A DNA stretch of 64,000 nucleotides from contig OY783209.1 in the NCBI GenBank assembly GCA_963678705.1, positions 12,276,001 through 12,340,000 of the forward strand. Direction: 5' to 3'. Origin of the DNA: Panorpa germanica. Taxonomy: Eukaryota > Arthropoda > Insecta > Mecoptera > Panorpidae. Below, piece by piece: positions 1,963-59,363 of the stretch (positions are counted from its first letter, which is position 1; each line of letters opens with the position of its first letter). The notes beneath the pieces are model-generated. The model had not been told where the DNA came from and searched no databases. It saw only the letters and a program-made list of their open reading frames with translations. The position numbers were made by a program, and so were the translations under genes.

Positions 1963-3043
1963 CTGAAAAAATATAAACTAATTAGAATATTTTGTTGAAT
2001 TCAGTTTTGTATATTTTACATAAAACATTTTATATTTTTACAACCTCTTTGTCGACTTCTTTATGTAATTATACAAACATATATCTTTTTATTTACATGC
2101 TTTTTTATTTAGCGGGTAGTATTCATGTTCTTTTTATTTGATTTATATACGTTTGTATATGTTTAGTTGTTTTTCAAACTATTCTATAGTGCGCTGTGAA
2201 GCAGCAAACAACCCTTATCATCCCTTAAGTTCATGTTACCCTGTCTCGAAATAGTTTTCAGTTCCCAGACTAATATTATACTACCAAAGTTTCCAGAGAA
2301 GTTATGGTGTCTACTAGCACTATTTTCATGAAAAGTAGTTTCGAATTATTTTATAGTAACATAACTATAGTTACTGACTGCTTAAAAAAAAGTTAAGTTT
2401 TTCTCATGAAAATTTCCTTCTAATAATTTTCATAGATTATTTCTTTTCTTTCTAGCATTAACATTTAGGAATAAGTTTGTCTCAACAGAACTTAAAAACT
2501 GGTTTAAACTTGTATTTTAATTTCTAATAGTTTGTTAATAATTTCAATCTAAAAACTAGTAGAGACAGAGGAAGCGCCGCGATTTGCATATATTTTGTGT
2601 ATTGCATTAAGTCTTCTACCCCAATCACTTCTCTTCATCAGCTTCCCTTACTGCATATTTTTATTAACACTATTTTTAATATATTTTTTATATGGATTGT
2701 ATCTGCAAATGTGGAGAGAAATTATAAGGGTAGTAAAATAGCTCGTCATATTTGACAGCCCCGAGAATGACATATAGGGTGAATTTTTATCAGGATCACA
2801 TGATAGAACCTTTAGTAAACACAAAAACAGGTTGGAATGATAGAGGGTTACAAATATTTACAGGGTTGGTAGGAACTGTATTTATATATTTAACCCTGTA
2901 AGCACAATCGTTGTATTTCTGTAATATTTGTTGAATATGTTATTATATATGTTATGTAATATCTATTTAAAATTTGAATTTCTATTTTCTGATTATTTTT
3001 TTAAGTCTGTAGACTTCATTACCGGATTATAACCGTCGTTGCA
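1963..3043. other. Non-coding AT-rich stretch
   Basis: No coding signature, terminal inverted repeat or RNA gene was seen here on either strand. Confidence 0.5.
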
Positions 3044-3708
3044 ATGGGCTTGTGTCCTATGTCTTAATTTCTATAAAAGTGTACTATATATTGATAAAGT
3101 GGGTTACTAGAACCTCAAATGTTCAATTATTTTTTAATAACTCTTTATATGTTAAGAGATATTAACAATTAAAAAAGTCATTTTGTCTCTTTAATTATTA
3201 AAGGGATTCAACGTTGTAAACATTCCAAATGCATGTGACATCACAACCACTAGTTGCTATCTCTTTTATACAAGAAAGCGTAAAAGAGATATATTCTTGA
3301 CAGAACTCTGACAAGTTTACAGGTTACCAACCTTGCAGCTCATAAATCTCTGATATATGTATTTATATATCAAAATATCAAATATTATTTAAAGCTATTT
3401 CAAGGAACAATAAAATTTCAATATTATATCTGCCGTAACAAGGTTAAATAAAATAAAAACTTATTATTCTCTGACTTGATTTGATTATTTCGACTACCAA
3501 CAGCTACAAAATATTACGTATAAAATGCATTTCACGTCATACAAATGGCCGACCATTTCTAGCGCTAAAACTATAATTCAAATTTTTAATTGCTATATCT
3601 CCGTCAATATTTAGATATTTAATAAAATAGACACGCCGATATTTATTAACATTAATTTCAATCAACAATTGAGAAATCGACCCCAAAATAATGAGGACAT
3701 AAGCCCAT
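3044..3708 (+). repeat. Inverted-repeat element, family A copy 1
   Basis: The element is bounded by ATGGGCTTGTGTCCTATG on the left and the near-inverse AGGACATAAGCCCAT on the right. The same ~0.65-kb sequence recurs inverted at 6317-6927 and direct at 55678-56380. It has no coding capacity, so it looks like a non-autonomous DNA element. No clear target duplication was found for this copy. The open frame at 3537-3824 is repeat sequence. Confidence 0.8.
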
Positions 3709-4574
3709 TGTCCTTTTTTTTGTATATTTTCAGATAGGCAACAGTTTTTGATATTTATTTGAATCTTCGAGTCACGTTTTACATTTTGCTTGACATAAAT
3801 CAATATAATATGGCGCGTAAACATTCTCTAAGATATCATATGTTTTCCGTTATTTTATGGAGTATGTTTCCCTGTCATAAGATGGGCTGGTACGCAACTA
3901 CATGTAGAGCATCTATCGTATTCGAACACGTCGGCGCATGTAGGTATTATGTCTCACGCCATACATGCTGCGTGTGGTGTACGATGATACATATTTGAAT
4001 ATATCAGTATGTATACTATTCAAACAGTGCTTGTTGATATTATACACTACCATGTACTGTATACCATATACCATATTATGTCGTCCTGTTACTTACTACA
4101 TTTTATTGTCACATTCAGTTTGTATAGATTTCTAGTTTCTCGGTTTCACTTTCGTTCAAAGTGCATACAGAATTATTTTCCAATGTATGTGCTCTTAATC
4201 CAAAAGTTGCACGTATCCACTATGTTTTACCCACGAATGCGCAGCGTGCACCCATGTGGCATGTTTTACAAGACCTTAGGCACGTAATGACGTCATAAAA
4301 TGATAATGAAAGTTAGTTTATATTGATCGGGTGCACTGTTGCAACAATACCGATGCTTGAATGACCTTGCTTCATCGATGACGTAGAAGTTCTACTACTA
4401 CATATAATAAAATATTCATCTAGCATATTTAAGAAATTATTTAAGAAATATAATACCACGACATTGTGGAATAACACGAAATGAAATATGTGTTATATAA
4501 TATGTGGATAAATTTGGAAATTGAGAATTGAAATTTGTAATATAATCAAAAAATTAAACTTCAATTTGAGAAAC
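3709..4574. other. Non-coding stretch
   Basis: Two plus-strand open frames (3759-3998 and 4009-4287) have no recognisable domain and low-complexity composition. I do not regard them as genes. Confidence 0.45.
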
Positions 4575-6123: not shown

Positions 6124-6316
6124 TAAATTAAACATAAAAAGGAACATAAGGTATAGATGTTAAGCTATTTTTTGTTTGCTGAATTTAGTTTCTGAAAATC
6201 TTGTCTTGTTTCTGAAAATGGTGAACTGTAATGGATACCTTTCTTGGGGGTGTTTCCATGTTTTCTAGACCAGGAACGGTTAACCCCGTTTTACGTCACG
6301 GATATCATTTCTTTAT

Positions 6317-6927
6317 TGGGCTTGTGTCCTCATTTTTTAGTGGTCGTTTTTTCAATTGTTGATTGAAATTGATGTTAATGAATGTGTATTGGCGTGTCTA
6401 TTTTATTAAATATCTAAATATTGACGGAGATATAGCAATTAAAAGTTTAAATTGTAGTTTTAGCGCTAGAAATGGTCGGCCACATTTGTATGACGTGAAA
6501 TTATATGTTGATTAGGTCAGTGCTGTGGTAATGTTCTGTAGCTGCTGGTAGTCAAATAATCAAGTCAAATCAAAGAATAATAAGTTTTTATTTTATTTAA
6601 CCCTGCTAAGGCAGACATAATATTGGAATTTTATTGTTCCTCGAAATAGCTGTAAATAATATTTGATATATAAATACATATAACAGAGATTTATGACCTG
6701 TACGGTTGGTAGCCTTACACAAGGATTGTGATGTCACATGCACTTGGAATGTGTACAACGTTGAATACCTTTAATAATTAAAGAGACAAAATGACTTTTT
6801 TAATTGTTAATATCTCTTAACATATAAGGAGTTATTAAAAAATAATTGAACATTTGAGGTTCTAGTAACCCACTTTATCAATATATAGTACACTGTTATA
6901 GAAATTAAGACATAGGACACAAGCCCA
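6317..6927 (-). repeat. Inverted-repeat element, family A copy 2 (inverted)
   Basis: Reverse-orientation copy of the 3044-3708 element. Its ends read TGGGCTTGTGTCCTC and GGACACAAGCCCA. The flanks carry TTAT on both sides (6313-6316 and 6928-6931), a possible 4-bp duplication. It is shorter than the other copies by internal deletions. Confidence 0.8.
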
Positions 6928-7676
6928 TTATTAATTGTAACAAGCTAGCAGATATATTATTTAAAAAATCAACTTCATTTTATATCTTGTACAAATTTGT
7001 ACGTAATTTGTTTAATTAGTAATTTTATGTACAGCGTTGACTGCTTTTGTATTAATTTATTCTTAGTTCGTCATTCAATAGAATAACAAAGTATGCATCT
7101 ATTTGATTATGCACTCCTCATAGAATTTGGACGAGCAGCTGCTTTTGATATTTGATGTTTGGTTTGACACACTCTGCGCTAGTGGTACCATATTGATCGA
7201 ACTCTAGCAACAAGAGCCACCGCGTGTGGTGCCGTGGTATTTATGTTACAACGTACAACGTATGACTTCTATTCATGGAGAATGGTAGTTTCTGCTGCCC
7301 TAATTCAAATTTGACGTCACGTTTTCAGTTCACACGTTTGTTATCTTAAAGAATACGCTAGGTCATACGGCAAGTCATACGCTATAGTCAAAATACACAT
7401 ACAGCCCACCATACTCCCTCTACGTACTTATTTGATAAGTATAATAATTTATATTATCTAATTGCGATTCATAAATAGTATCGTCAAGATTACTACACGT
7501 TATACTTACTATTTTATGTAAACTTTTTAGGATTATCTCCTTTACTTGGATAAGAAAAAAATAAGACATCTACATATCCAAGGAACTATTATACATCATT
7601 ATACTAATGTTATACTGTTGTATATCTTTTTAACACATGTCCGTCTCACTAACAAATAAATAACTGACTTTACATA
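6928..7676. other. Non-coding stretch
   Basis: No coding or repeat structure recognised. Confidence 0.4.
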
Positions 7677-23662: not shown

Positions 23663-23672
23663 TGTTTTGCGG
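23663..23672 (+). repeat. 10-bp target duplication, left copy
   Basis: TGTTTTGCGG immediately precedes the left arm of the mirror element. The identical 10 bp follows its right end at 28461-28470. Confidence 0.8.
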
Positions 23673-25452
23673 ACGTCGCTGAAGTTAGCGAAAAGTTCGA
23701 AAATGAGCAGTACTAGTGGTGTCCAACTGACATTCGCGCAAAAGTCTATACACTTGTTGGATTTAATATTTGCAAGTGTATTATGTCTTCTATTTAAATA
23801 AATAGTTTACAATGTGTACGAAAAAAAATAAAAAAACATAAATAATAATAATATGGTAAAAATACCACATATTTGAATCGGTCAAAAAGGGTTTATAACA
23901 CACATTACAACTAATTAAATAAATACAAATTTATTGACGGCAGGTATATTAATTAAAAAACTACAGACATCAGAATTCCCCCAACTCAAATTCATTGCTT
24001 GCATATGGACAGAGTTTGCAGAAAGTGATTATTTTCTCCGAACACCATTGAAATACAATGATAGAATTAGGAAAAAATTAAATCAATTTTTCAAACATAC
24101 TGTTTAATTTCTTCATGTACTTTCAGCATTCCTTTCAGATTCCAGTGCAATTGATCTTTTTTACAGTTGTAAAATCTGTAATGGTTTAATGTATATATTT
24201 AGCAAATGTATTATGTATTTATTTAAATTCTTTATTAAGTATAAATTTGTTGTTCTTACTGTTCGAAGAGGTGTGCGTTTACTTCGTTATTTTTTAAAAA
24301 TATTTCTCGAATATCAATAACTTTAATATAAGGATCTGAAATGAATCTTTTTTTAAATTAAATGTCTTACAATACATGTATATTAGTAACGTAACTTACG
24401 GTGTTTTGGCAATGTACAAATTTTGCTATTATATTTGTTCAACATTTTTATTTTGTCGGGATTATTTTCCCATATTTGCGGAGTGGGTAATGTCAACCAT
24501 ATTGCTTTGGTCGTGCTATGACTTAATATGTTTGCAATTCTTCTAATATTATTGCCAAATGCTTGGTGGTCTTTTCCCTAAAAACAAATTTGAGAGTATT
24601 TTATATTGTACTATTGTAAGGTTCTATGTTATTTTATACTTACTTTAATTATGTCGTTTATTCCAATCATTATTAGAGCATTTTGTTTTAATAGAGGATT
24701 TCCTCTACATCTCCTTATATGCTCTAATAAGTTTGCTGATTTTCTTTCACTTTTCGCAAAGTCGATTTCATTATGTTCGACTTCTTTTTTTTTGATAAGT
24801 TGTTTTCCATATCTCACGAGATAGCTATCTCCATATAGAGTATAGCTAGAATACTTGAAGATTGAAAATAAATGTACTTTGATGTATTGAATTGTATTTA
24901 CAAACTTTGTTATTTTTAAAAATATTTTTTTATACTATTACTTACGAGTTCATTATTTTCGGATCGATTATTCTCGGCTTTACACTGATTCAATGGAGTA
25001 AATTTCAAATTTTCATCCTCTAAATTATAAACAGAGTCTGGATGCATTCTCTAAAATACAATTTACTACTATTTATAATGTTCTAAAAAATTTCTGAGTT
25101 GTATCTTGATTTAAACTAACTTACCCGCAAATGATTGTAACAATTTGTTATTGAATACTCGATATTGCTGAACAATTTTGTTGCACAGATATTACACTCT
25201 GCCTTCAACAATTCATTGTCGTTGGATTGTAAACTTTTAAAATAACTACTTATTACAAGTGGTGCAGTTGAAATTAAGGAAGACATGATGTTAAACAATC
25301 TTTTTTAGACAAGGTCTATAACACGATTGTACAAAGAATGAATGCAAAATTCAAATGTCGCCAAAGTAGTCGACGTTGGCGCTATATTCTACGGATTTTT
25401 GTTAAACTATTTTTTTGTAGTTTCATCTCTTTCTATATTTGAGAATAGGGTT
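23673..25452 (+). repeat. Left inverted arm (1780 bp)
   Basis: Reverse complement of 26607-28460. The inner border is GAGAATAGGGTT (25441-25452), matching AACCCTATTCTC (26607-26618), after which the two sides diverge. Within the gene span the two arms align with no net length change. Confidence 0.88.
24091..25286 (-). CDS. BED zinc finger-SGNH/GDSL hydrolase, left-arm copy, 6 exons
   Basis: Mirror copy of the right-arm gene. Exons, in order of transcription: 25286-25125, 25050-24946, 24853-24644, 24577-24400, 24335-24260 and 24175-24091. All GT..AG borders and the reading frame are intact, giving a predicted 271 residues. All catalytic motifs are kept (GDSY, GIND, DQLH), as is the BED finger. 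I noticed five amino-acid differences from the right copy: position 55 R for I, one E for G in the second exon, Y for F just before the GDS motif, I for L after GIND and A for T in exon 5. I also noticed at least one silent change. Two intact copies suggest recent duplication or gene conversion between arms. Expression is unknown. Confidence 0.82.
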
Positions 25453-26606
25453 TAATTAATGGAAGGGGAAACAGGAAGTGGGTGTTTCAAAGTGAAGAAA
25501 CATTGTCCGTAGACAAATCATTGAGTTGAGGAAACTAAGGGTAGAGACTCAGGATGTCGGTATATGACAAACAATAGTAATATAATAATATCTATATGTA
25601 AGAATAAGTAAAACTAACTGAAACCGTTGAGAGAAAGTCCATTAGATGTTCATAAAATATTGTTATTGTACCCCAATAAAATAATTTAAACATGGCACCG
25701 CCACGGGTTTAACTCACACTCTAAGGGATTTTCATTAGTTCTTGTACATTATTATATTGCTAAAATCCTGGAAGTACGAGTATATCATAAAAATAGATAA
25801 ATGTTTCATGCCTGGTGCACAAATTAAAATACTGGCTTAAATATCTAAATGGTTTGGATATGCGTTTTATTGTTTATATAGGACGGGTTTTTCAATGCAA
25901 AATTGAGAGTGTTGTTTTATGACTGTATGAGACTGTAAATATTATGCAGTAATTTGGTTTATATTGCTCTGTTTATATTTATAACTAAGAAAATCCCATT
26001 ATTTAACATATTATTAAGCAACAAAAAAGGTTTAAATAAAATAAAGGGTTTTATTGTTTGTAAGGTTTTTATGAATGTGTTATGGTATATACAGGGGCGG
26101 CCTTAGCCATTACAATTCCCCGGGCGGCAGAAATTTGCGAGGCCCCGGGGTGGCAGATCTTTGTGAGGCACTTGTTCTTTGTATAATTTATGTAAATTAT
26201 AAGTAATTATTTTTGATAATAATTGACGAGAAATAAAATTTTATATTGGAAGATTTATAAAAGTTAATAAGCACAAAGACGACAAATATTAATGATAATA
26301 AACTAAGGTACATGAATGCCTTAAAAGATATACGCAGTGATTCTAGTTTAATTTGTAACTTCTTATGGAACAGTAATGAATTTGTGTACCTAAGTTGTTG
26401 CGCGAGAATACAAGGCCCCTACAAGAGCGAGGCCCCGGGCGGTTGCCTCCTAAGACCGCCACTGGGTATATATTTTAAACTAAGGTTATCTATGTCTATA
26501 CTTTTTACTAAACTTATGAATCACCAACTGAAATATTTCTTAGGCTTAGTCTAATTTACACTTGCATATTTATATTAGAAGGACAAAGACTAATTTATTT
26601 AAAAAT
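25453..26606. other. Central spacer of the mirror element
   Basis: Unique sequence between the two arms. Both arm genes start close to it and run away from it, so it should contain their divergent promoters. A hAT MITE occupies 26092-26464. No open frame of note. Confidence 0.6.
26092..26464 (+). mobile_element. hAT-type MITE, family D copy 1, perfect 8-bp duplication
   Basis: Starts CAGGGGCGGCCTTAGCC and ends TCCTAAGACCGCCACTG, whose reverse complement matches the start. GGTATATA flanks both sides (26084-26091 and 26465-26472). The GC-rich termini (GAGGCCCCGGG) contrast with an AT-rich core. Relatives are at 45737-46136 and 44296-45439. Eight-base duplication and CAG..CTG ends identify the hAT superfamily. 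Confidence 0.9.
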
Positions 26607-28460
26607 AACCCTATTCTCAAATATAGAAAGAGATGAAACTACAAAAAAATAGTTTAACAAAAATCCGTAGAATATAGCGCCAACGCTGACGACTTTGACG
26701 ACATTTGAATTTTGCATTCATTCTTTGTACAATCGTGTTAAAGACCTTGTCTAAAAAAAATTGTTTAATATCATGTCTTCCTTAATTTCAACTGCACCAC
26801 TTGTAATAAGTAGTTATTTTAAAAGTTTACAATCCAACGACAATGAATTGTTGAAGGCAGAGTGTAATATCTGTGCAACAAAATTGTTCAGCAATATCGA
26901 GTATTCAATAACAAATTGTTACAATCATTTGCGGGTAAGTTAGTTTAAATCAAGATACAACTCAGAAATTTTTTAGAACATTATTAATAGTAGTAAATTG
27001 TATTTTAGATAATGCATCCAGACTCTGTTTATAATTTAGAGGATGGAAATTTGAAATTTACTCCATTGAATCAGTGTAAAGCCGAGAATAATCGATCCGA
27101 AAATAATGAACTCGTAAGTAAAAGTATAAAAAAATATTTTTAAGTATAACAAAGTTTGTAAATAGAATTCAATACATCAAAGTACATTTATTTTCAATCT
27201 TCAAGTATTCTAGCTTTACTCTATATGGAGATAGCTATCTCGTGAGATATGGAAAACAACTTATCAAAAAAAAAGAAGTCGAACATAATGAAATCGACTT
27301 TGCGAAAAGTGAAAGAAAATCAGCAAACTTATTAGAGCATATAAGGAGATGTAGAGGAAATCCTTTATTAAAACAAAATGCTCTAATAATGATTGGAATA
27401 AACGACTTAATTAAAGTAAGTATAAAATAACATAGAACCTTACAATAGTACAATATAAAATACTCTCAAATTTGTTTTTAGGGAAAAGACCACCAAGCAT
27501 TTGGCAATAATATTAGAAGAATTGCAAACATATTAAGTCATAGCACGACCAAAGCAATATGGTTGACATTACCCACTCCGCAAATATGGGAAAATAATCC
27601 CGACAAAATAAAAATGTTGAACAAATATAATAGCAAAATTTGTACATTGCCAAAACACCGTAAGTTACGTTACTAATATACATGTATTGTAAGACATTTA
27701 ATTTAAAAAAAGATTCATTTCAGATCCTTATATTAAAGTTATTGATATTCGAGAAATATTTTTAAAAAATAACGAAGTAAACACACACCTCTTCGAACAG
27801 TAAGAACAACAAATTTATACTTAATAAAGAATTTAAATAAATACATAATACATTTGCTAAATATATACATTAAACCATTACAGATTTTACAACTGTAAAA
27901 AAGATCAATTGCACTGGAATCTGAAAGGAATGCTGAAAGTACATGAAGAAATTAAACAGTATGTTTGAAAAATTGATTTAATTTTTTCTTAATTCTATCA
28001 TTGTATTTCAATGGTGTTCGGAGAAAATAATCACTTTCTGCAAACTCTGTAAATATGCAAGCGATGAATTTGAGTTGGGGGAATTCTGATGTCTGCAGTT
28101 TTTTAATTAATATAGCTGTCTTCAATAAATTTGTATTTATTTAATTAGTTGTAATGTTACTAAGCTCCCTGCAAAATTTAAACCGTTTATTTTATTTTGT
28201 TTTCTGAGAAAGTCAACATTTGCCATGTGTGTTATAAACCCTTTTTGACCGATTCAAATATATGGTATTTTTACCATATTATTATTGTTATTTATGTTTT
28301 TTTATTTTTTTTCGTACACATTGTAAACTATTTATTTAAATAGAAGACATAATACACTTGCAAATATTAAATCCAACAAGTGTATAGACTTTTGCGCGAA
28401 TGTTAGTTGGACACCACTAGTACTGCTCATTTTTGAACTTTTCGCTAACTTCTGCGACGT
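26607..28460 (-). repeat. Right inverted arm (1854 bp)
   Basis: Reverse complement of the left arm. It carries about 71 bp (28157-28227) that the left arm lacks, bordered by ATG on both sides, so either a small deletion on the left or an insertion on the right. Confidence 0.88.
26773..27968 (+). CDS. BED zinc finger-SGNH/GDSL hydrolase, right-arm copy, 6 exons
   Basis: Predicted 271-residue protein from exons 26773-26934, 27009-27113, 27206-27415, 27482-27659, 27724-27799 and 27884-27968. Every junction is GT..AG (GTAAG donors) and in frame; the stop is TGA. The N-terminal finger is C31-x2-C34-x17-H52-x4-H57, split by intron 1, matching the BED-type pattern. The C-terminal part carries SGNH hydrolase blocks: YGDSYL with nucleophile S99, IGINDL (G153, N155) and DQLHW with D251 and H254. 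Such enzymes are esterases or lipases; the substrate here is unknown. ATG at 26773 is chosen as the first in-frame ATG before the finger; a TTG lies 12 bp upstream. SGNH domains are known in ORF1 of CR1-like LINEs. Pairing with a BED finger in a DNA element is unusual as far as I know. Confidence 0.85.
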
Positions 28461-28470
28461 TGTTTTGCGG
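28461..28470 (+). repeat. 10-bp target duplication, right copy
   Basis: TGTTTTGCGG, identical to 23663-23672. Confidence 0.8.
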
Positions 28471-30840: not shown

Positions 30841-31661
30841 TGTTGTAAGTACGCATAAGTCGTACTTATCCTTCCTATTTTTAATATAAATGTTATTTAT
30901 TTTATAAGAATTATATTATGTTATCTTTAATTTTAGTATTAATATTGTAATAAATAATTATTTGTATTTAGCGCTTGTAAACATTGACTCTGGTCTGTGG
31001 AGATTTTATATTATTTTAATGCTGGTAACTCAGTATTGGCACATTGTGATGTGAAATAAATCATTATATATTAATCTGCACGCTAGTCAGAAAGTCAGTC
31101 TTCTCCTGAGTCTCAACCAAGTGTTTACTAATTGTACTTCGTTCGTACAATACTCCAATTGTAACATCTAAGTATTCAATAGTGAGCACATTTTAACTAT
31201 TAATCAAATTATAACACTAGAATTACATTTTGTTTTATATCTGGCATCTTTATTAATCCAATAAAATACTATTGTAATTAAGTAAGCAGATATAATATTA
31301 CAACGAATAAATGATATATTTTAATAAAAGTGTTTGTATTAATAGTATTTAAAAGATACTAATTGTTCAACCGTCGTATGTTGCAACGAGGTTATACTTT
31401 AGGCCGCTCAAGTATTCTCAAATTGCAACAATACACCGTCAAACAAGAATCCTATTAATCATCTTAAAAGAGTTAATTCTTATCAACGTGAGTAATTCAA
31501 GAAGGTGGATGATCGTCAAACTGAAGAATCTACTTCCAGAAACTAGCAACACTGCGTGATGTATTAGCAAGCTGAGTAATCTCCTTCTAGAACGAGCATC
31601 AGACCTCTTTTTACAACATTGATGTCAGGTGTAACATCCGCCTTCGAATATACTTACAACA
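30841..31661 (+). repeat. 5' LTR, 821 bp
   Basis: Begins TGTTGTAAGTACGCATAAGT and ends TTCGAATATACTTACAACA. By eye it is identical throughout to 35491-36311. AT-rich, with several AATAAA-like signals. Confidence 0.95.
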
Positions 31662-31663
31662 AA

Positions 31664-31681
31664 TGGTGTCAGGTGTGGGGT
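31664..31681 (+). other. Candidate primer-binding site
   Basis: TGGTGTCAGGTGTGGGGT starts two bases after the 5' LTR. It begins TGG, as expected for pairing with a tRNA 3' CCA end. I could not assign the tRNA. Confidence 0.5.
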
Positions 31682-32089
31682 CTCGAAGAGATATTCCTAC
31701 ACATAAATATCCAAGAGGTACGCCCAAAATTTTTTCTATATATTCTACACCTGGATGCAGATCAATTAATCTGGATGCCACTACGCCGATGGATTATTTC
31801 TAAAATTGCCGAAGAGTACGAGCTAGAACGTCGTTTCATCTGTATTTCACATAATTTTCTACAAGTCCGGTGGATGCAAAACTACAGCCCGCTGAACCAG
31901 AAAAAAAAGAAATCTTTTGCCCCCAGCGAATGGATGGATGCTTCTAGAACACATGGAATAATCTAAATCGATGTTAATCGTTTCCAGAACACTGCACACA
32001 GCTGTACATAGATCAAAATCGAAAGAATTTTTTTTAAGTATAATAAGACAGTATCTTTCTTTTTGTATATAATTATTATTATAAATTGA

Positions 32090-32365
32090 TAATTGTATTT
32101 TTTTTATTAATAGCATTATTTTTAACGAGGCTATCATTTTTTTTTAGTATTATATTCAGTACTTTTGAATATTTACTATAATCCAAGCATTTTTTTAGTA
32201 GCAACGTTGTTAATGAGGCTATTGATATTTTTTTTTAGTATTATATTCAATACTTTTGAATATTTGCTATAATCCAAGTATTTTTTTGTAGCATCCTTGT
32301 CCATCATTGAAGCTATTAATTTTTTTATAGTATTATATCCAATACTTTTGCATATTTACTATAAT
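32090..32365 (+). repeat. Leader tandem repeats, three ~92-bp units
   Basis: Three diverged units each contain a T-run, AGTATTATATTCAATACTTT, GAATATTTACTATAATCCAAG (or close variants) and a GAGGCTATT-like segment. They lie in the untranslated leader between the primer-binding site and gag. Confidence 0.75.
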
Positions 32366-32675
32366 ATTTTTTATAATTGTTTCCGCAATTATACTAATTT
32401 ATGTTAATATTTTTTTAGAACAACATCTTTTTTTGAACGAGAGGGAATTTTGAAAAGGAGAACTAAAGAGCTGAAGCAGTTAGATAGCAGTCTGTTCAAT
32501 CAGAGAGACTACCTTCCTGTTACAACTGCGGTGTCTGAGCCCCATCGGAAATTTCCTGTGAGTTACTGTTTTCGCTAACAATTTTTCCTTGTCAGAATCC
32601 TATTTTTCGGAGAGTCGTTTATTGGTACAAAATAATCTTTAGTCTGTATATTATATATAACTTTAATTAAGTACA

Positions 32676-35159
32676 ATGGCACCGAACGTTCATTCCCTCA
32701 CATTAGTTGAGAATACAATCAATCTAATCAATGAGTTTTCAAAAAATTTAGAAGTCCAATCAACATCCTTAACAATAGTTGAATTAAAAATCAAAAACTT
32801 AGATAAAGCTTGGGTTAAATATAGTAGTATCGTAGAAGCACTGCTTCCAATTCTAAAAAATGAAGAAGCTACGGCTATCGTTAGTAAGTCTATGGAAGTT
32901 GAAAGTATTTATGACGACACTCTTATTTCCTTGTTGAATTATAAGCAAACATTTGAGGATAATACACATATTGTGGATGACTCAAAAAGCATAGATTCAA
33001 TAAAAAATTTAAACTTAAGTCCAATGCAACTAACCGTTTTTGATGGAGAATATACTAATTGGCAAAGTTTCATGGAATTATTTACAAATTTAATTCGTAA
33101 TAATAGTAAGTTATCAAGCATTGAAAAAATGCACTATTTAAAATTAAATTTGACAGGAGAACCACTCAAACTCATAAAGAATTATCCTTTAACAAACGAT
33201 AATTATGAAATTGTTTGGAACATCCTTTGTAAACGTTATGATAACAAGGTAGCACTTATTGAAACCTATTTAAACAATTTAATAAACTACAATGTTATAC
33301 GTTTAGAATCAGAAACTAATATCAAAAATTTTTTAGACGAAATTAATGAATCGATTAGAGCATTAACCGAGTTGGCAATATATTCTAATCATTCAGATTT
33401 TATTTTTATACATTTTTTAAAGACCAAGTTAGATTTTAACACATTAAAGGAATGGGAAAACAGAAATACTTCTGAATTACCAACCCTAAATGATTTTACG
33501 AATTTTCTTGAAACACGGTGGCGCACTCTAGAAAGAAGAAGGCATGTTGAATTTAAAACAGATTCAAGTCATTCTATTTCTAGTAGTGAACCAGTTTCAA
33601 GTGAACAATTTGCTAACGAAGTCGAAACAAAATTTAAAACTTTTTTTTGTAACTATTGTAAAAAAAATGGTCATTTAGAGAAATATTGTTTTATCAAGAA
33701 GGAAAATGCGGATACGGTATATCCTGTCGCGCAAATTAATATTTGTAGGAGAGATACGGTATTTTCAAAACCTTCTGTTTATTGTAAAAGATCGAGACAT
33801 CTTGAATCTGATAGTCCTCAAGTATCTTTTACTAAAAATACAAAACAAAATTCACGTTCTTTTTATAATCACCATTTACGTAAATTTAATAGTTTAAATA
33901 AAAATATTGAGATTAAAGAAATACAAAATACCAATGATATAACAAATTTTAACTGTAACAATGAAAATGTTATTGACAAGCAAACAGCTGACACTGTTCA
34001 ATTCAGAATAGTCGCAGCCAAAGCAAAGACTGTATCATTTTTATTGGACACTGGTTCTCAAATTTCTTTAATTAAACAAAATATTTTAAAAAATAATATC
34101 AAAATAGATAGTACATCTAAAGTGTTATTAAAGGGAATCTCTGAAGGCACGCCTTATACTTTAGGTTCACTAAAAACTTCTATAATTTTAGATAGTTCTA
34201 GGTCGAAACATACTTTTCAGGTTGTGTCAGAGGATTTCCCCATTAAGCATGATGGAATCATAGGTTTAGATATTTTACGTACATTTAAAGCAGTAATTAA
34301 TTTGGAAACAAACAGCGTACAATTCTCACAACATGGCAAAATATTTGAATTCCCATTATTGAACATAAACAGTATTATCATAGTTCCAGCACGTACTAGG
34401 AAATTAATTCCTATGTCGGGTTCTACGGTAGGAGTTTGTGTAGCCAAGGAATTGCTACCTGAAGTTTTTTTAGCCAACGCATTAATTAATCCTATTAATA
34501 ATACTTTTTATATATCAATAACTAATTCCTCAGCAAAAGATGTAATACTTGACAATTTTAAACCAGATATTATTCCAATAAATAAATTTAATTTTTACCA
34601 TTTTTTGAAAAGAAATCCTAACGATCCTAAAAGATCCTTACGACATCTTTTATTTAATAATATAGATTTTTCAAATGTTAATTCAAAATACTTAACAGAT
34701 TTAATGGAAATCTGTAATAATTTTAATAACATATTTTTTTTCCCGGTAGATAAGTTATCTTGTGCGAGTGCACTGAGTAACTCACCTAACCCTGTAAACA
34801 TTAAGCCGCATAGATTATCTCATGCGCATAAAGAAATTGTTGAGAAGCATATTCAAGAACTGTTGGCTAACAACATTATTGAAAAATGCGACTCACAGTT
34901 TAACGCACCTCTGTTAATGGTACCTAAAAAAGCAGATGTGTCGGGGAACAAACAATTTTGCGTTGTAATCGACTATCGTAAACTTAATGAACAGACGACA
35001 AGTGATGTTTATACTTTGCCTCTCGTACTTGACATACTAGACCAACTTAGTGGTGCAAAATATTCTTCTACGATTGATTTAGCTACAAATAAATTTACTA
35101 GTAATAAACCAAAATTTAAATTAAATTTTGATAGAAGGGTCAATTTTTTTTTCACCTAG
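32676..35159 (+). CDS. Gag-protease-RT polyprotein, truncated, LTR retrotransposon
   Basis: One frame of 827 codons. Residues ~115-260 resemble the DUF1759 gag region of BEL/Pao elements (LSPMQLTVFDGEYTNWQSF). A CCHC knuckle follows at 325-338 (CNYC...GHLEKYC), with a second, degenerate Cys/His patch after it. An aspartic protease follows, with active site LLDTGSQISLI (D458-T459-G460). From ~710 a reverse transcriptase begins (HKEIVEKHIQELLANNIIEK, VIDYRKLNEQT, TIDLAT) that resembles Ty3/gypsy rather than BEL/Pao. The frame leaves homology at ~805, before the YxDD catalytic motif, and stops after a short unrelated tail. RNase H and integrase are absent. The ATG at 32676 is the first in this frame and sits well after the leader repeats. 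Confidence 0.9.
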   Translation: MAPNVHSLTLVENTINLINEFSKNLEVQSTSLTIVELKIKNLDKAWVKYSSIVEALLPILKNEEATAIVSKSMEVESIYDDTLISLLNYKQTFEDNTHIVDDSKSIDSIKNLNLSPMQLTVFDGEYTNWQSFMELFTNLIRNNSKLSSIEKMHYLKLNLTGEPLKLIKNYPLTNDNYEIVWNILCKRYDNKVALIETYLNNLINYNVIRLESETNIKNFLDEINESIRALTELAIYSNHSDFIFIHFLKTKLDFNTLKEWENRNTSELPTLNDFTNFLETRWRTLERRRHVEFKTDSSHSISSSEPVSSEQFANEVETKFKTFFCNYCKKNGHLEKYCFIKKENADTVYPVAQINICRRDTVFSKPSVYCKRSRHLESDSPQVSFTKNTKQNSRSFYNHHLRKFNSLNKNIEIKEIQNTNDITNFNCNNENVIDKQTADTVQFRIVAAKAKTVSFLLDTGSQISLIKQNILKNNIKIDSTSKVLLKGISEGTPYTLGSLKTSIILDSSRSKHTFQVVSEDFPIKHDGIIGLDILRTFKAVINLETNSVQFSQHGKIFEFPLLNINSIIIVPARTRKLIPMSGSTVGVCVAKELLPEVFLANALINPINNTFYISITNSSAKDVILDNFKPDIIPINKFNFYHFLKRNPNDPKRSLRHLLFNNIDFSNVNSKYLTDLMEICNNFNNIFFFPVDKLSCASALSNSPNPVNIKPHRLSHAHKEIVEKHIQELLANNIIEKCDSQFNAPLLMVPKKADVSGNKQFCVVIDYRKLNEQTTSDVYTLPLVLDILDQLSGAKYSSTIDLATNKFTSNKPKFKLNFDRRVNFFFT

Positions 35160-35490
35160 AAAGTATACGGTAGTTAATAGGAATAGATTGAAGAGATTTT
35201 GTACCAATGAATAAAACCTTGACGAATAAGATGGATTTTGTCAGGGATGATTGTTTTGTGAAGCAGTGTTAACTCTATACGATGGGATCAGAATCGTTGT
35301 CGACACTTTGCTTCTCTTTTTGTTTTTTTTTCCAGAATTGTAACTCGTATATTTTGTTTTTATACGTGTCCCTTTTTTTTTGGAAGGGGGTGTTGCGATA
35401 GTACGACATCGTCCTATCTTCCTTTTTCTTTTTCTTGGAAAGAAACGCATATGTTTGTTTAATATGCGTTCCTTTTCTAGGGTTGAAGGG
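35160..35490 (+). other. 3' internal remnant of LTR element with purine tract
   Basis: Non-coding remainder between the deleted pol and the 3' LTR. GGTTGAAGGG directly precedes the 3' LTR and may be the polypurine tract. An earlier GGAAGGGGG followed by TGTTGCGATAGTACGACATC (35382-35410) resembles a second tract plus LTR start. Confidence 0.55.
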
Positions 35491-36311
35491 TGTTGTAAGT
35501 ACGCATAAGTCGTACTTATCCTTCCTATTTTTAATATAAATGTTATTTATTTTATAAGAATTATATTATGTTATCTTTAATTTTAGTATTAATATTGTAA
35601 TAAATAATTATTTGTATTTAGCGCTTGTAAACATTGACTCTGGTCTGTGGAGATTTTATATTATTTTAATGCTGGTAACTCAGTATTGGCACATTGTGAT
35701 GTGAAATAAATCATTATATATTAATCTGCACGCTAGTCAGAAAGTCAGTCTTCTCCTGAGTCTCAACCAAGTGTTTACTAATTGTACTTCGTTCGTACAA
35801 TACTCCAATTGTAACATCTAAGTATTCAATAGTGAGCACATTTTAACTATTAATCAAATTATAACACTAGAATTACATTTTGTTTTATATCTGGCATCTT
35901 TATTAATCCAATAAAATACTATTGTAATTAAGTAAGCAGATATAATATTACAACGAATAAATGATATATTTTAATAAAAGTGTTTGTATTAATAGTATTT
36001 AAAAGATACTAATTGTTCAACCGTCGTATGTTGCAACGAGGTTATACTTTAGGCCGCTCAAGTATTCTCAAATTGCAACAATACACCGTCAAACAAGAAT
36101 CCTATTAATCATCTTAAAAGAGTTAATTCTTATCAACGTGAGTAATTCAAGAAGGTGGATGATCGTCAAACTGAAGAATCTACTTCCAGAAACTAGCAAC
36201 ACTGCGTGATGTATTAGCAAGCTGAGTAATCTCCTTCTAGAACGAGCATCAGACCTCTTTTTACAACATTGATGTCAGGTGTAACATCCGCCTTCGAATA
36301 TACTTACAACA
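35491..36311 (+). repeat. 3' LTR, 821 bp
   Basis: Same sequence as the 5' LTR. It is followed by GCAT (36312-36315), the target duplication. Confidence 0.95.
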
Positions 36312-51634: not shown

Positions 51635-52315
51635 TTCAGATTGGGAAACGAGGAGAAAGGAAACAGATACTGGGCAAATAAAGAGAAAAGGATGTGCAGG
51701 GTGTGCGGAACAGGGATAGCAACGCTGGAACACATTAAGTTTTCATGTGAGCAAAAGGTAAAAAGCGAAAAGAATATTGTGCAGTTATTAAAGGGAGGCA
51801 AAGAAGGGAAAAGGTGGATAGCGAAGATAGAGAAAAGGAGCGAGGAAAGAGAAGGAATGGCATACCCAGTAAACAATTTGGTGAAGTGCCCTATTTAGTG
51901 ACGTTTCTATCACTATTTCACTTCAATTATAGTTCGCATCAACTTTATCTTCATTTGTATTCCGACAGGTGGAGTAATTTCGCCATTTGTAGCCGATAAA
52001 GTAGACATTTTATATGAAAAAATGTGAGAAACTGAACTATAAATGAACTCTTTTATGACAAAAAAATCATGACGCATCTTCAATATGATGTCAAAGTGAC
52101 TCCAAAATGTTTACTGGGTAGTAGAAAGAGAGTAGCAGGAGGAATTTTGTTTTTATTTTTCTTTTTTTTTCTTTTGGAAGGAGTGAGAATGTTTAGATAT
52201 AATAAGGATCAAAAATGAATTAAGCACAATGATATGTAATTTTATGAGTTAAGGTAAAAGAATCTAATGCCCAATGGTAAAAACATTAAAAATAAAATAA
52301 TAATAATAATATAAT
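51635..52315 (+). pseudogene. Non-LTR retrotransposon 3' end, family E copy 3, split by a MITE
   Basis: Plus frame 51641-51864 gives RLGNEEKGNRYWANKEKRM, CRVCGTGIATLEHIKFSCEQ and NIVQLLKGGKEGKRWIAKI. This is the cleanest of the three copies of this LINE end. At 51865-52118 a 254-bp MITE interrupts it with a TA duplication; LINE-derived sequence resumes at TAGTAGAAAGAG. The 3' region ends in TAATAATAAT-type repeats. Confidence 0.8.
51865..52118 (+). mobile_element. Family C MITE (254 bp), Tc1/mariner-like, copy 1
   Basis: Ends CCCAGTAAACAATTTGG and CCAAAATGTTTACTGGG are inverted. TA flanks both sides, and the surrounding LINE sequence lines up once the MITE is left out. Other copies are at 54291-54544 and 54565-54807, with a fragment at 19135-19186. 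Confidence 0.85.
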
Positions 52316-54154: not shown

Positions 54155-54290
54155 ATATTTGGTTGTAAACCATATCTTAATTTCTATAAAACTGTAGCAC
54201 ATGAGTTGCCCAGAAGTCAAAGTAGTTAAATATAATATAACAATCGAAATTATTAATGTTTTGAATACACTGGAGAACATCAGAGTCGTT

Positions 54291-54544
54291 CCCAGTAAAA
54301 AATTTGATGAAGTGTCCTATTTAGTGGCGTTTCTATCATTATTTCACTTCAATTATAGTTCGCATCAACTTTATCTTTATTTATATTCCGACAGGTGGAG
54401 TGGTTCCGTCATCTGTAGCCGATAAAACAGACATTTCATATGAACGATTTTAAGAAACTGAATTATAAATGAACTCTTTCATGACAAAAAAAATCATACG
54501 CATTTTCAATATGATGTCAAAGTGACTCCAAAATGTTTACTGGG
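54291..54544 (+). mobile_element. Family C MITE, copy 2
   Basis: CCCAGTAAAAAATTTGATGA ... CCAAAATGTTTACTGGG, the same length as copy 1. It sits 20 bp from an inverted copy 3. The frame 54201-54425 runs into it and is not a gene. Confidence 0.8.
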
Positions 54545-54564
54545 TTTTTAAGCATAGGCAACAT

Positions 54565-54807
54565 CCCAGTAAACATTTTGGAGTCACTGTGCCATCATAT
54601 TGGAGACGCGTATGGTTTTTTTGTCATGAAAAAGTTCACTTTCACATAGTCCTTTATATAAAATGTCTATTTTAATCGGCTACAAATGACGAAACCACTC
54701 CACCTGTCGGAATACAAATGAAGATAAAGTTGATGAGAACTATAATTGAAATGCAATAGTGATAGATACATTACAAAACAGAACACTTCACCAAATAGTT
54801 TACTGGG
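54565..54807 (-). mobile_element. Family C MITE, copy 3 (inverted)
   Basis: CCCAGTAAACATTTTGGAGT ... CCAAATAGTTTACTGGG, reverse orientation. Together with copy 2 it makes a ~250-bp-arm hairpin with a 20-bp loop. Confidence 0.8.
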
Positions 54808-55677
54808 ATAGGCATAATTACTAAAATAAATTTGAACCCAAAAAACAAATAGAGGTGCAGAATAATGCTTACTCAAACGTCAGATACTAATTACAGCTGT
54901 TACGAGCAACACATTAACTTTAGGCATTATAAATGTGGTAAACAGGAATTATCAAAATCAATTAATTCATTTTCTTATTCTAGTCAAAAATATGGTTAGA
55001 AATTAACCGGTAAAATTGAAATTCAAATTTTAGAGATAAATTATCACATATTTTAATAAAAACATTAAAGATCGGAACCATAAAAAGGTATCAAGATCAG
55101 CAAGATGACATGTTGTTACCATTAAGTCAGCTTAATAATTAATCTGGGTTACCAACCCACGTGAATATAAATAAATATAAAAAAGATCGAATTAGAAGTT
55201 TTAATGGCATGTTTTATAAATCACTGTAAGAACTATCGATTTCTATAGCCGCTAGAGGCGCTACGGGCTACACAATTAATCTCAATCAAATAAGTACTAA
55301 ACCTAATTCGCTGGTGGTAGGGCGATGGATGATGGGAGATGGGAGATAGGAGATGGGAGATGGGAGTGCCCCATTTATGCGCATCAATCAAGATAAATTG
55401 ATGCGTTTAAGGCAATGAAACTGAATGACTTTCTTTTATTGTAAAGACAGTCACTCGTTTATATTAGTTGAATGTAATATAATGAGAACCGTATGTAATC
55501 AACTTACATTAAGTAGTCCTATAATGGCGGCTATCTACGACTACATGCATCTGACGATCTCGTATTTAATTATGCAATTATTATAATTGAATTAGAATTA
55601 GCTTGTATTGCATGAGTATAGTATACACCCGTTAAACTGTCATGTTACGTTACATTCATGTAATGTTTTATGTAAAA
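54808..55677. other. Non-coding stretch with a minisatellite
   Basis: About 55320-55367 is a tandem run of GATGGGAGAT/GGGAGAT units. Nothing else recognised. Confidence 0.5.
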
Positions 55678-56380
55678 TGGGCTTGTATTCTATGTCTTAA
55701 TTTCTATAAAAGTGTACTATATATTTATAAAGTGGGTTACTAGCACCTTAAATGTTCAATTATTTTTTAATAACTTCTTATATGTTAGGAGATATTAACA
55801 ATTAAAAAAGTCATTTTTTCTCTTTAATTATTAAAGGGATTCAACGTTGTACACATTCCAACTGCATGTGACATCACAGCCGCTAGTTGCTATCTCTTTT
55901 ATACAACAGAGCGTAAAAGAGATAGCATATTCAAGACAGAACTCTGACAAGTTTACAGGTTACCAACCTTACAGCTCATAAATCTCTGCTATATTAATTT
56001 ATATATCAAAATATCAAATATTATTTGCAGCTATTTCAAGAAACAACCAAATTCCAATATTATGTCTGCCATAACATGGTTAAATAAAATAAAAACTTAT
56101 TATTCTTTGACTTGACTTGATTATTTTGACTACCAACAGCTACAGAACATTACCACATCACAGACCTAGTCAACAAATAACTGAAGCATAAATGCATTTC
56201 ACATCATACAAATATGGCCGACCATTTCTAGCGCTAAAACTACAATTCAAATTTTTAATTACTATATCTCCGTCAACATTTAGATATTTAATAAAATAGG
56301 CACGCCAATACACATTTATTAACATCAATTTCAATCAACAATTGAAAAATCGACCACTAAAGAATGACAACACAAGCCCA
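55678..56380 (+). repeat. Inverted-repeat element, family A copy 3
   Basis: TGGGCTTGTATTCTATGTC ... GACAACACAAGCCCA, colinear with 3044-3708 over ~700 bp. It contains the same TTCAATTATTTTTTAATAAC, TGACATCACA and CTAGCGCTAAAACTA blocks. Confidence 0.8.
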
Positions 56381-59363
56381 TTAACCTAGTCAAAACGGTT
56401 TAAAAATTAAAATTATTCAATTCAAAATATTTTTATTATGTACAATCATATTTTTGCTAGAGGCTCGGCTCTGGCTTAATGCGGCACTGCGTTCATTTAA
56501 CACTGCTTAGATTACTGTTATACAATTTTAAACACATAAGAAATAACAACACATAGCTGCAGAATTTTATTGTTTTATTTACTATATAATGTTCTGAAAT
56601 GAGTTAGTTTGTAATATAATAATAATTGCCTATTTACAATACATAACATCTATGAACATTGATTATTTTATAATACATAAACATTTTGTATTAAACGTAT
56701 AATTATTTACATTGTTATCATCCATCCATACATCACATGTAAAGAACAAATTGAACGTTTATTAAACATTTAAATAATTGAACAACAATACAATACATTG
56801 AAAACAATTTCATCATGTTATTTTAACAACTGTTTTTATGAATTCATATTTTATTTAAGTTTATTTATAGTAATGATAAGACAACGGGCGCAGTCCTCTG
56901 AATATCAGATCATGGCTCGTTTGAAAATTTCAATTTAAATTTTAATTCAGATATATTTTCTATGAAAATTGAAATATCTAAAATATTATAAAATTTTCTA
57001 TATTTGTACAGATTTGATACTTTTTATTTCTACTACTAATTTGTTTATTAAAAATTTATGCAAAAAATAAATAAGTATATTAAAAAATAGAGGTTTTAAT
57101 TTCCTTTTGGATATAATTGGGCTTTTGTCTTGTGTGAGAAACACATTACAACAAAATGACGACCACAAGTTCTCACATTGCGACTCATATCTAATAAATG
57201 TAAATCAATAATATTTTACATATTTTTTAGTTCTTTTCCGGAGTGTACATACAAACAACTTCTAAAAAAACTCTAAAAATAAACCAACAAAGTCAAATTA
57301 ATTAACACTTCTAATGAAATGAAAACTAATTGAATTGTATTTAATTAAATCATCGAAACAACAGGTGTCTATTACTAATTACTTAATGATAACAAGTTCC
57401 TCTAACAAACTAATCATTATTTATCAATTAAAAGATTTAATTAAATGGCTAATCCACTAATTTAAATGAAAATGGACAGTTTGTTGTTTAAATGCCTTCA
57501 AACTGTCTAATTGTTTTGTTTACACGGGTTTAAATCGAATTGCAATACTAATTATATTTAAAATAGATATTTTGTAAATAAAAATAAAATATAAAATTGA
57601 TTTGGAAGAAAAGATTTACAATATAAGGATTCTAAACTCATTGTTATTACATTAATTATTTATTTAAACATTTTTTTCTAATTGTTTACTAACTTATTTT
57701 ACGTAAAATATTACTTTTACTAGAATAATTTTTTCTAATATTTTATTTAATATTTTCCTTCTAAAATTACATAAGCAATATATTTTAATAATTGCTTTTT
57801 AAATTAAATTTACAATTAATTTGATTGCTTGTTACAATAATATTTTATCTTGATGATTAGTTTATTCTATATATAATTTTCTATATGTACAATATTTGGA
57901 TAAATATAAGATGTATTAACTAATAAATATAGATATAAAATAATTATTGTTAGGTGGTGTAAGTTATGTTGCATAAGCTGTAGGCGTGTTTTATAAGAAA
58001 ACTAGTGCTTAGTACAGATGATGTAACTAACCATGCATACATTAAGAAAATCATTCATATTTAAATTTCTCTTTAGATTAATTTTTTAAATGTATTAATA
58101 ATTGGTAGTGTGCATTCATACGTTTAAAATATATTTAAGGCAGTGCAATAGAACTAAATCAAAACGTGCCATTTAGAAATCGCGTTCCACCTTGAGAACA
58201 AGCTGAAACAAGTTTTACTGGCGACATTCGTTCCTAGTATAATATTTTATTGGATTTAAGACCAAAATTTCCGTGAGCAGCTGAATCATCTATACGAAAA
58301 CAATAGTGTTACAAAAACAATTTGATTTACCTTGTGAGTTGTAAATATACTGAATCTAAATTCTGATATAGATACTAATATTTATAATTACGTTTATTTA
58401 ACTGTTCTATTTTTACAGCCACATCATAAATAATGATGTTGTAATTGTATGCTGTTTAAATCATTTCGTAATATCACATTTACATCTGTTAACTCCAAAC
58501 CGTGGCCGCCAGCCAATTTACTAATAGTGCTTATAATTCTGTAATTTCAAAATATTCATAAATCTATTTCAGTCAAATCCCATAACAAAGACCTATGATT
58601 GATTGATTGAGAAGGATTAATGTAATACAATTAGAAAGACTTGCAAAGGTAAGTAGATTAGCAAGGTCGTACAGATATCTGTAACCGGTGGGTACAAAAC
58701 ATTACTGAAACAAAAACATGGAAACAAACCAAATTAAAAACGTATAAAAAATTAAATGAAAAATAAATATATATTTAATTTTGTACAGAAATATAACTAA
58801 AAAATAAATCAAAATAGTTATAAAATTGTCACATTATTAACAAAGAAACATATAAAATTATAACAATTTTAATCAAAAAATTACTAAAAATATATTAAAT
58901 ATTTCATTTGTTTGTCAATTATTATTCATTCCTTTACACAGAACACATCAGTAGTCATCATGCGCTAGCTTGCACCAAAAAATTGTAAAAAAATGTTCAA
59001 AATCTAAGAATTGTATAAGTAAAAATAGTTTTATCATTCCATGCTATCAGTTGCCATTAAATGCAAAACAATAATCCGAGTACGACGAGTAAAATGTCTT
59101 GTGAATTTTTATATAAAATGTCTCTTAGATATTGACACAGAGAAACTGGCTCATAAGAAATATGTACCCCTACATAATAAGTTGAGGGTCTGTATTTAAA
59201 ATATGTACACAATTAACTTAATTAACCATTTTTCACGCACTATTAAATTATTTATAAGTAACTATTTATGTACAGTTTCTTAATTAAGTTTAACACATTT
59301 TTATTAAATAATTATGTTTTTGTTCTCACTTTCACCTATTATATTATTTATTATTTATCTTCT
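56381..59363. other. Intergenic/3' flank of the mannosidase gene
   Basis: Very AT-rich. The mannosidase 3' UTR should begin at 59363 on the minus strand. A reverse AATAAA (TTTATT at about 59301-59306) is a possible polyadenylation signal. No gene seen in the remaining ~2.9 kb. Confidence 0.45.

Follow-up and report, generated by a model that had tools for sequence, protein, structure and literature searches.

Positions 23673-28460 of a 64,000-nucleotide stretch of Panorpa germanica DNA (contig OY783209.1; the whole stretch is called the window here) very probably represent a foldback-type, Mutator-like DNA transposon that has two genes in its fuller form and is present here as a non-autonomous mirror-image copy. 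The region is a single inserted unit with two inverted arms, matching ends and a target-site duplication (TSD). Its only genes are two copies of one protein that carries a BED-type finger followed by an SGNH hydrolase domain (BED-SGNH); a transposase is absent. An original prediction made from the window had described a DNA transposable element with a duplicated BED-SGNH gene as its only cargo, which the ends, the TSD and the gene content support. The same prediction took the layout for a family of its own. This part is unsupported: the window copy is a derivative without transposase, and in fuller relatives within the host genome the gene has a putative transposase gene as its partner.

Structure of the mirror-image element

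Alignment of the two arms revealed 30 mismatches in 1,780 aligned bases, together with one 71-bp and one 3-bp indel, both in the outer part of the arms. Both termini of the element read ACGTCGC and are flush with a perfect 10-bp TSD, TGTTTTGCGG, which had not been noticed previously. Also new is a nested hAT-like miniature inverted-repeat transposable element (MITE) with an 8-bp duplication, GGTATATA; this insertion is old, since the same MITE is present in other copies too. As originally predicted, each arm contains an intact six-exon, 271-codon open reading frame (ORF) read outward, with GT/AG at all five introns. The exon models of the BED-SGNH genes, and that of oskar used below, are predictions without RNA. 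The features of the unit are as follows, family A being the family to which the window element belongs.

23663..23672, no strand: left TSD TGTTTTGCGG, same 10-mer at both ends
23673..25452, minus strand: left inverted arm (arm alignment)
23673..23905, minus strand: left outer terminal inverted repeat, an 'outer' module also found in copies elsewhere in the genome
23902..24024, minus strand: left ~193-bp subterminal unit, single and partly deleted; tandem in many other copies
24091..25286, minus strand: left BED-SGNH gene (ORF, GT/AG introns, Pfam)
25286-25125, 25050-24946, 24853-24644, 24577-24400, 24335-24260, 24175-24091, minus strand: exons of the left gene
25453..25886, no strand: spacer part A, 434 bp, with no clear counterpart and weak matches only in 19 other family A loci
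25887..26606, no strand: spacer part B, common to other copies, containing the nested MITE
26092..26464, no strand: nested hAT-like MITE (CAGGGGCGG...CCGCCACTG), with the 8-bp duplication GGTATATA at 26084-26091 and 26465-26472
26607..28460, plus strand: right inverted arm (arm alignment)
26773..27968, plus strand: right BED-SGNH gene (ORF, GT/AG introns, Pfam)
26773-26934, 27009-27113, 27206-27415, 27482-27659, 27724-27799, 27884-27968, plus strand: exons of the right gene
28035..28221, plus strand: right ~193-bp subterminal unit, single (module map)
28222..28460, plus strand: right outer terminal inverted repeat (module map)
28461..28470, no strand: right TSD TGTTTTGCGG, same 10-mer at both ends

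Differences between the arms occur at 6 of 816 coding positions and 24 of 964 other positions (Fisher p 0.005), and the longest run without any difference is 376 bp. The two gene copies differ at six codons. Since five of these are replacements, local copying between the arms accounts for the low coding divergence no less well than selection does.

Copies in the host genome and the putative transposase

The arms had been proposed as probes for further copies, and these were found: a 1-kb arm probe gave at least 42 matches in the 464-Mb host assembly (40 of 88 candidates scored). Twenty stretches were fetched and two adjacent ones joined, so that 19 loci were compared alongside the window. A module map of these 20 sequences revealed a common build consisting of an outer repeat of ~225-239 bp, tandem ~193-bp subterminal units (1 to 25 per side within the stretches fetched), the gene, and a spacer that holds the same MITE in several copies. 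Both outer ends are present in 10 family A copies including the window, and 9 of these have a TSD of 9 or 10 bp; none was found in L011, though both its outer ends are present. When families B and C, described below, are included, a TSD of 9-10 bp flanks 12 of the 13 copies with both ends. The ends read GCGACGT in nearly all family A copies and GCGACCT in two related loci. More mirror copies with TSDs of their own lie on other contigs.

Transposase sequence is present in 8 of the 19 family A loci, divergent from one gene copy. It is of full length in one, on contig C8, where an open frame of 1,170 residues (1,154 from the first methionine) lies between two inverted gene copies. The sole Pfam match of the 1,154-residue protein is Peptidase_C48 (3.5e-8), an Ulp1-type tail; Ulp1-type sequence was scored in family A only. 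The motifs GDATGS, TDFSFAL, CCNH and ALVES[WL]F, corresponding to Asp, Asp, C-x2-H and Glu, are visible in families A and C, with the Glu motif reading ALVESLF in the full-length A copy and ALVESWF in the L019 fragment. These unscored motifs may resemble those of Mutator-like elements (MULEs). A 395-residue transposase piece from a related copy gave 96 genome matches, some of which form groups with identities near 51% and 45%. The PHD finger that marks the transposase of Rehavkus (PMC6446971) went undetected up to E 10 in the single protein searched.

In at least three DNA transposon families, all Mutator-like and of foldback type, the BED-SGNH gene occurs together with the putative transposase. 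The SGNH domain of family B is 65% identical to that of family A, and that of family C 37%. Six exons are found in both B (180, 93, 210, 178, 76 and 91 nt) and A (162, 105, 210, 178, 76 and 85 nt). A family B mirror copy has 3,121-bp arms that are 99.87% identical and two intact genes, and the family B locus L037 has a gene-transposase pair. In family C, where the finger was not covered since the 5' end of the gene lies outside the fetched stretch, a divergent gene is paired with transposase sequence in L038 and L039. L038 (C8:962000-971499) contains an intact transposase-like frame of 1,111 residues, 42% identical to the family A transposase, between 2,433-bp inverted repeats that are 99.8% identical, which suggests that it was recently active. 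L035 and L036 (family B) and L039 (family C) have 9-bp TSDs and ends resembling ACGTC[GA][GC]TGAAG. The transposases of the three families are ~42-51% alike, and the divergent order of gene and transposase is kept in A (L022, L024), B (L037) and C (L039).

Family C SGNH genes were also observed as close inverted pairs on contigs C1, C7, C8, C10 and C14. In these five pairs among the matches listed the genes face each other, whereas they point outward in A and B.

The BED-SGNH gene and its predicted protein

The BED-SGNH gene is under purifying selection. The ratio of nonsynonymous to synonymous substitution rates (dN/dS) was 0.23-0.46 in 17 of 21 family A pairs and 0.24-0.28 in 15 A-B pairs, the synonymous rate in the latter being 1.06-1.18. 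Two family B loci were left out, L034 with a misplaced last exon and L037 in which exon 2 was not found; the excluded L034 gave 0.29-0.31 in five comparisons with A and 0.67-0.71 in three with B.

The translation contains the predicted finger, C-x2-C-x17-H-x4-H divided by intron 1, and its Cys/His pattern is intact in both window copies. The predicted SGNH blocks were recovered. GDS, GIND and DQLH motifs are present, with S99, N155, D251 and H254 in place (S99, D251 and H254 forming the triad), while block II reads SERKS, its Gly being replaced by Glu125 in both arms, a change not recognized earlier. A Pfam check of the product lends support to a BED finger and an SGNH (GDSL/OSK-like) domain, with scores on both sides of the cut-offs. 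zf-BED (cut-off 20.6 bits) is exceeded by the left copy (23.5) and missed by the right (19.2), as it is by L016 (19.8), L028 (19.3) and family B (17.2). OSK (PF17182; cut-off 27) is exceeded by both window copies (27.4 and 27.6), by other family A copies (28.0 and 31.4) and by family B (37.7); family C scored 24.8 with one mistyped residue and is not listed with the correct one. Lipase_GDSL_2 (cut-off 32.9) is just missed by the window copies (31.7 and 31.0), exceeded by L016, L028 and family C, and missed by family B.

Among 24 gene copies examined, 14 are intact, many of these without a transposase. The block II Gly is kept in 12 of the 14, and in 10 of them block I has GSS in place of GDS, with the Ser retained. 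Because both window copies have Glu in place of the block II Gly, catalysis by the window protein, including esterase activity, is doubtful. NCBIfam gave no match for the BED-SGNH protein, single transposon sequences had no match in the PDB at E up to 10, and searches of phages and plasmids gave none at E up to 1. In viral contigs the window protein had 1 pattern hit and the transposon alignment A2 161, and A2 had 98 in other genome contigs; none of these hits was confirmed, and no relative beyond the host was found in these collections.

Proposed origin of the mirror

Fuller members of the family have an outer terminal repeat and a tandem ~193-bp array closing each end, and inside them an outward BED-SGNH gene and a divergent putative transposase gene with an Ulp1-type protease tail. 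The transposase would act on the ends, possibly aided by binding of the BED finger to end or subterminal DNA. The SGNH domain may serve an accessory function, either lipid or ester handling or that of a nucleic-acid-binding scaffold as in Oskar. The mirror would result from copying of one arm to the other side during repair, and the inverted arms would then have grown inward, covering the gene and displacing the transposase; the window copy would have to rely on transposase from another source. The inverted overlap of the gene measures 39, 81, 923, 1,076 and 1,196 bp in five of the 19 loci; for the window it is 1,196 bp. In L018 and L019 the transposase is truncated beside an extended arm. This graded series suggests stepwise inward growth of the arms by repair copying. 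In Galileo, arms lengthen by recruiting inner sequence and ~210-bp tandem units lie inside the ends (PMC3573991).

Several points weigh against this interpretation. No locus was seen with all parts intact; at the C8 locus with the full-length transposase, the left gene is frameshifted and the right gene lacks part of exon 1. The 1,154-residue protein has no Pfam transposase domain and no MULE domain, so that the superfamily assignment rests on TSD length, terminal structure and the unscored motifs. Finally, the remaining 4 of the 21 family A pairs are too similar to inform on selection and include the two arms of the window, with a dN/dS of 1.15.

Possible relationship to oskar

oskar is the germ-plasm founder gene of insects, and the OSK domain of the host oskar was located and verified (Pfam OSK 168 bits; Drosophila Oskar structure E 1.1e-23). 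The evidence is mixed as to whether the transposon SGNH domain and OSK share a eukaryotic ancestor, perhaps by passage from transposon to oskar. For comparison of introns, a MAFFT alignment blind to introns was used, with three introns on each side and 540 positions. In families A, B and C the phase-0 intron following GINDIIK shares its column with the OSK intron following GSVDILL. The phase-2 intron following LFE shares OSK's column in C and is displaced by one column in A and B. Neither the third intron of the transposon nor the first of OSK has a counterpart on the other side. Two same-phase matches within a codon arose by chance in about 7 of 10,000 trials, in a test picked after the match had been seen. 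OSK is the best Pfam hit of family B. Five bacterial controls scored 15.7, 13.2, 23.6, none and 12.1 bits against it, and in 14 well-known control genomes the profile rang in one and exceeded its cut-off in none. Profile comparison gave 54.1 over 175 columns for transposon and OSK, 52.0 for transposon and bacteria, and 41.6 over 72 columns for OSK and bacteria. In a tree that came with a long-branch warning, the transposon and OSK stood apart from the five bacterial rows at 99/98.

Against this kinship, GDSL_2 outscores OSK in the window, A and C copies, and the transposon profile searched against the PDB has bacterial lipases as its top entries (best E 0.011), Oskar being unlisted. Most of the bacterial controls were also TesA-like, and they are not the Firmicutes proteins that publications name as closest to OSK.

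In the published view OSK arose by direct transfer from bacteria (PMC7250577), and in the available portion of that report the activity of transposable elements figures only among the possible causes of integration (Blondel et al., PMC7250577). We tentatively consider another course, possible though on balance doubtful, in which OSK would be a domesticated transposon gene: an intron-bearing SGNH gene would have been mobilised by the present transposon lineage, joined to a LOTUS gene, and then have lost its catalytic residues. The transposon proteins retain the Ser-Asp-His triad, of which OSK has lost Ser and His (PMC2848206), and in this scenario they would be living relatives of OSK that have also kept a BED finger. 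Transfer from host to transposon, the SGNH gene having been taken from an early oskar, would produce the same shared introns and OSK similarity but is unlikely, as its source must predate the loss of a triad that the transposon has kept (PMC2848206). If the domestication of OSK proves true, a transposon step replaces or refines direct bacterial transfer; if the OSK link holds, the origin of oskar, a textbook bacteria-to-animal gene transfer, becomes directly testable.

Other explanations

It is quite improbable that the element is a captured host gene of the Pack-TIR/Pack-MULE kind, in which a transposon without transposase took a host BED-SGNH gene and then doubled it. Gene capture is known, as in the coding fly case Ssk-FB4 (PMC8277862), an SGNH gene has been moved by Helitrons in fish (PMC4021074), and the five introns are host-gene-like. 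However, the gene adjoins the transposase in three families whose transposases are only ~42-51% alike, the divergent order is conserved, and the gene is under purifying selection. No single-copy parent was found among the matches listed of the protein search, no dedicated parent search being made. A source of the SGNH part in the esterase carried by CR1-like, RTEX or Penelope retrotransposons is, we consider, scarcely likely. Retroelements do contain such esterases (PMC3905857), but here introns interrupt the gene, a BED finger is encoded with it and the ends are of cut-and-paste style. The retroelement esterase is also missing among the 9 sequences that the transposon profile retrieved from the PDB at E up to 10, CR1 esterases not being directly compared. 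Long palindromes are a classic assembly hazard, and the original prediction had named an artefact as its own possible undoing; such an artefact or a chance palindrome is highly improbable given the 30 arm differences and two indels, the asymmetric spacer, the perfect TSD and the mirror copies on other contigs.

Other repeats in the window

An LTR (long terminal repeat) retrotransposon occupies 30841-36311, with an 830-residue open frame inside; its insertion is recent, since its two 821-bp direct repeats are 100% identical. At 54290-54808 lies a 519-bp imperfect palindrome, 81% identical to its reverse complement, and pieces related to it occur at 51865-52119. Three copies of a dispersed repeat family, 85-98% alike, lie at 3043-3709, 6313-6933 and 55673-56384.

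Comparison with known systems

Read as a foldback-type, Mutator-like transposon copy, the window element adds to the DNA transposons a lineage in which the second gene, BED-SGNH, is conserved, and SGNH domains are now found in cut-and-paste-type elements besides retrotransposons and Helitrons. One genome displays graded stages from inverted ends growing over the gene to the mirror-image element. No paper on a BED-SGNH gene in a DNA transposon, or on a transposon origin of OSK, was found in the open-access literature, a search that did not cover subscription papers and Repbase.

MULEs have TSDs of 8-11 bp, often long terminal repeats, and extra ORFs (PMC6446971). The present families share the TSD length and the long terminal inverted repeats, which are common but not universal in MULEs. 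The arthropod MULE Spectre has two ORFs, for a C2H2 zinc-finger protein and a transposase (PMC6446971), whereas the accessory gene here encodes BED and SGNH domains and the transposase has an Ulp1-type tail; the terms SGNH, BED and Ulp1 do not occur in the main text of that source. Foldback elements such as Galileo resemble the window family in their long ends with internal tandem units, variable end length and extension by copying of inner sequence (PMC3573991), and here too we found long ends, tandem subterminal units and variable length. A further resemblance is offered by FB4 of flies, which holds a coding gene that it captured (PMC8277862). Galileo differs in belonging to the P superfamily with 7-bp flanking duplications (PMC3573991). 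Here the TSD measures 9-10 bp, and both arms contain a whole accessory gene.

SGNH hydrolases in mobile elements are known from the ORF1 esterase of CR1, RTEX and Penelope (PMC3905857) and from texim in fish Helitrons (PMC4021074). These are retrotransposons and Helitrons, and the available parts of the two reports mention no BED finger or mirrored pair. The OSK domain of Oskar is similar in its SGNH domain and in two intron positions and phases, but in Oskar the domain is joined to LOTUS, and two residues of its triad, Ser and His, are gone (PMC2848206).

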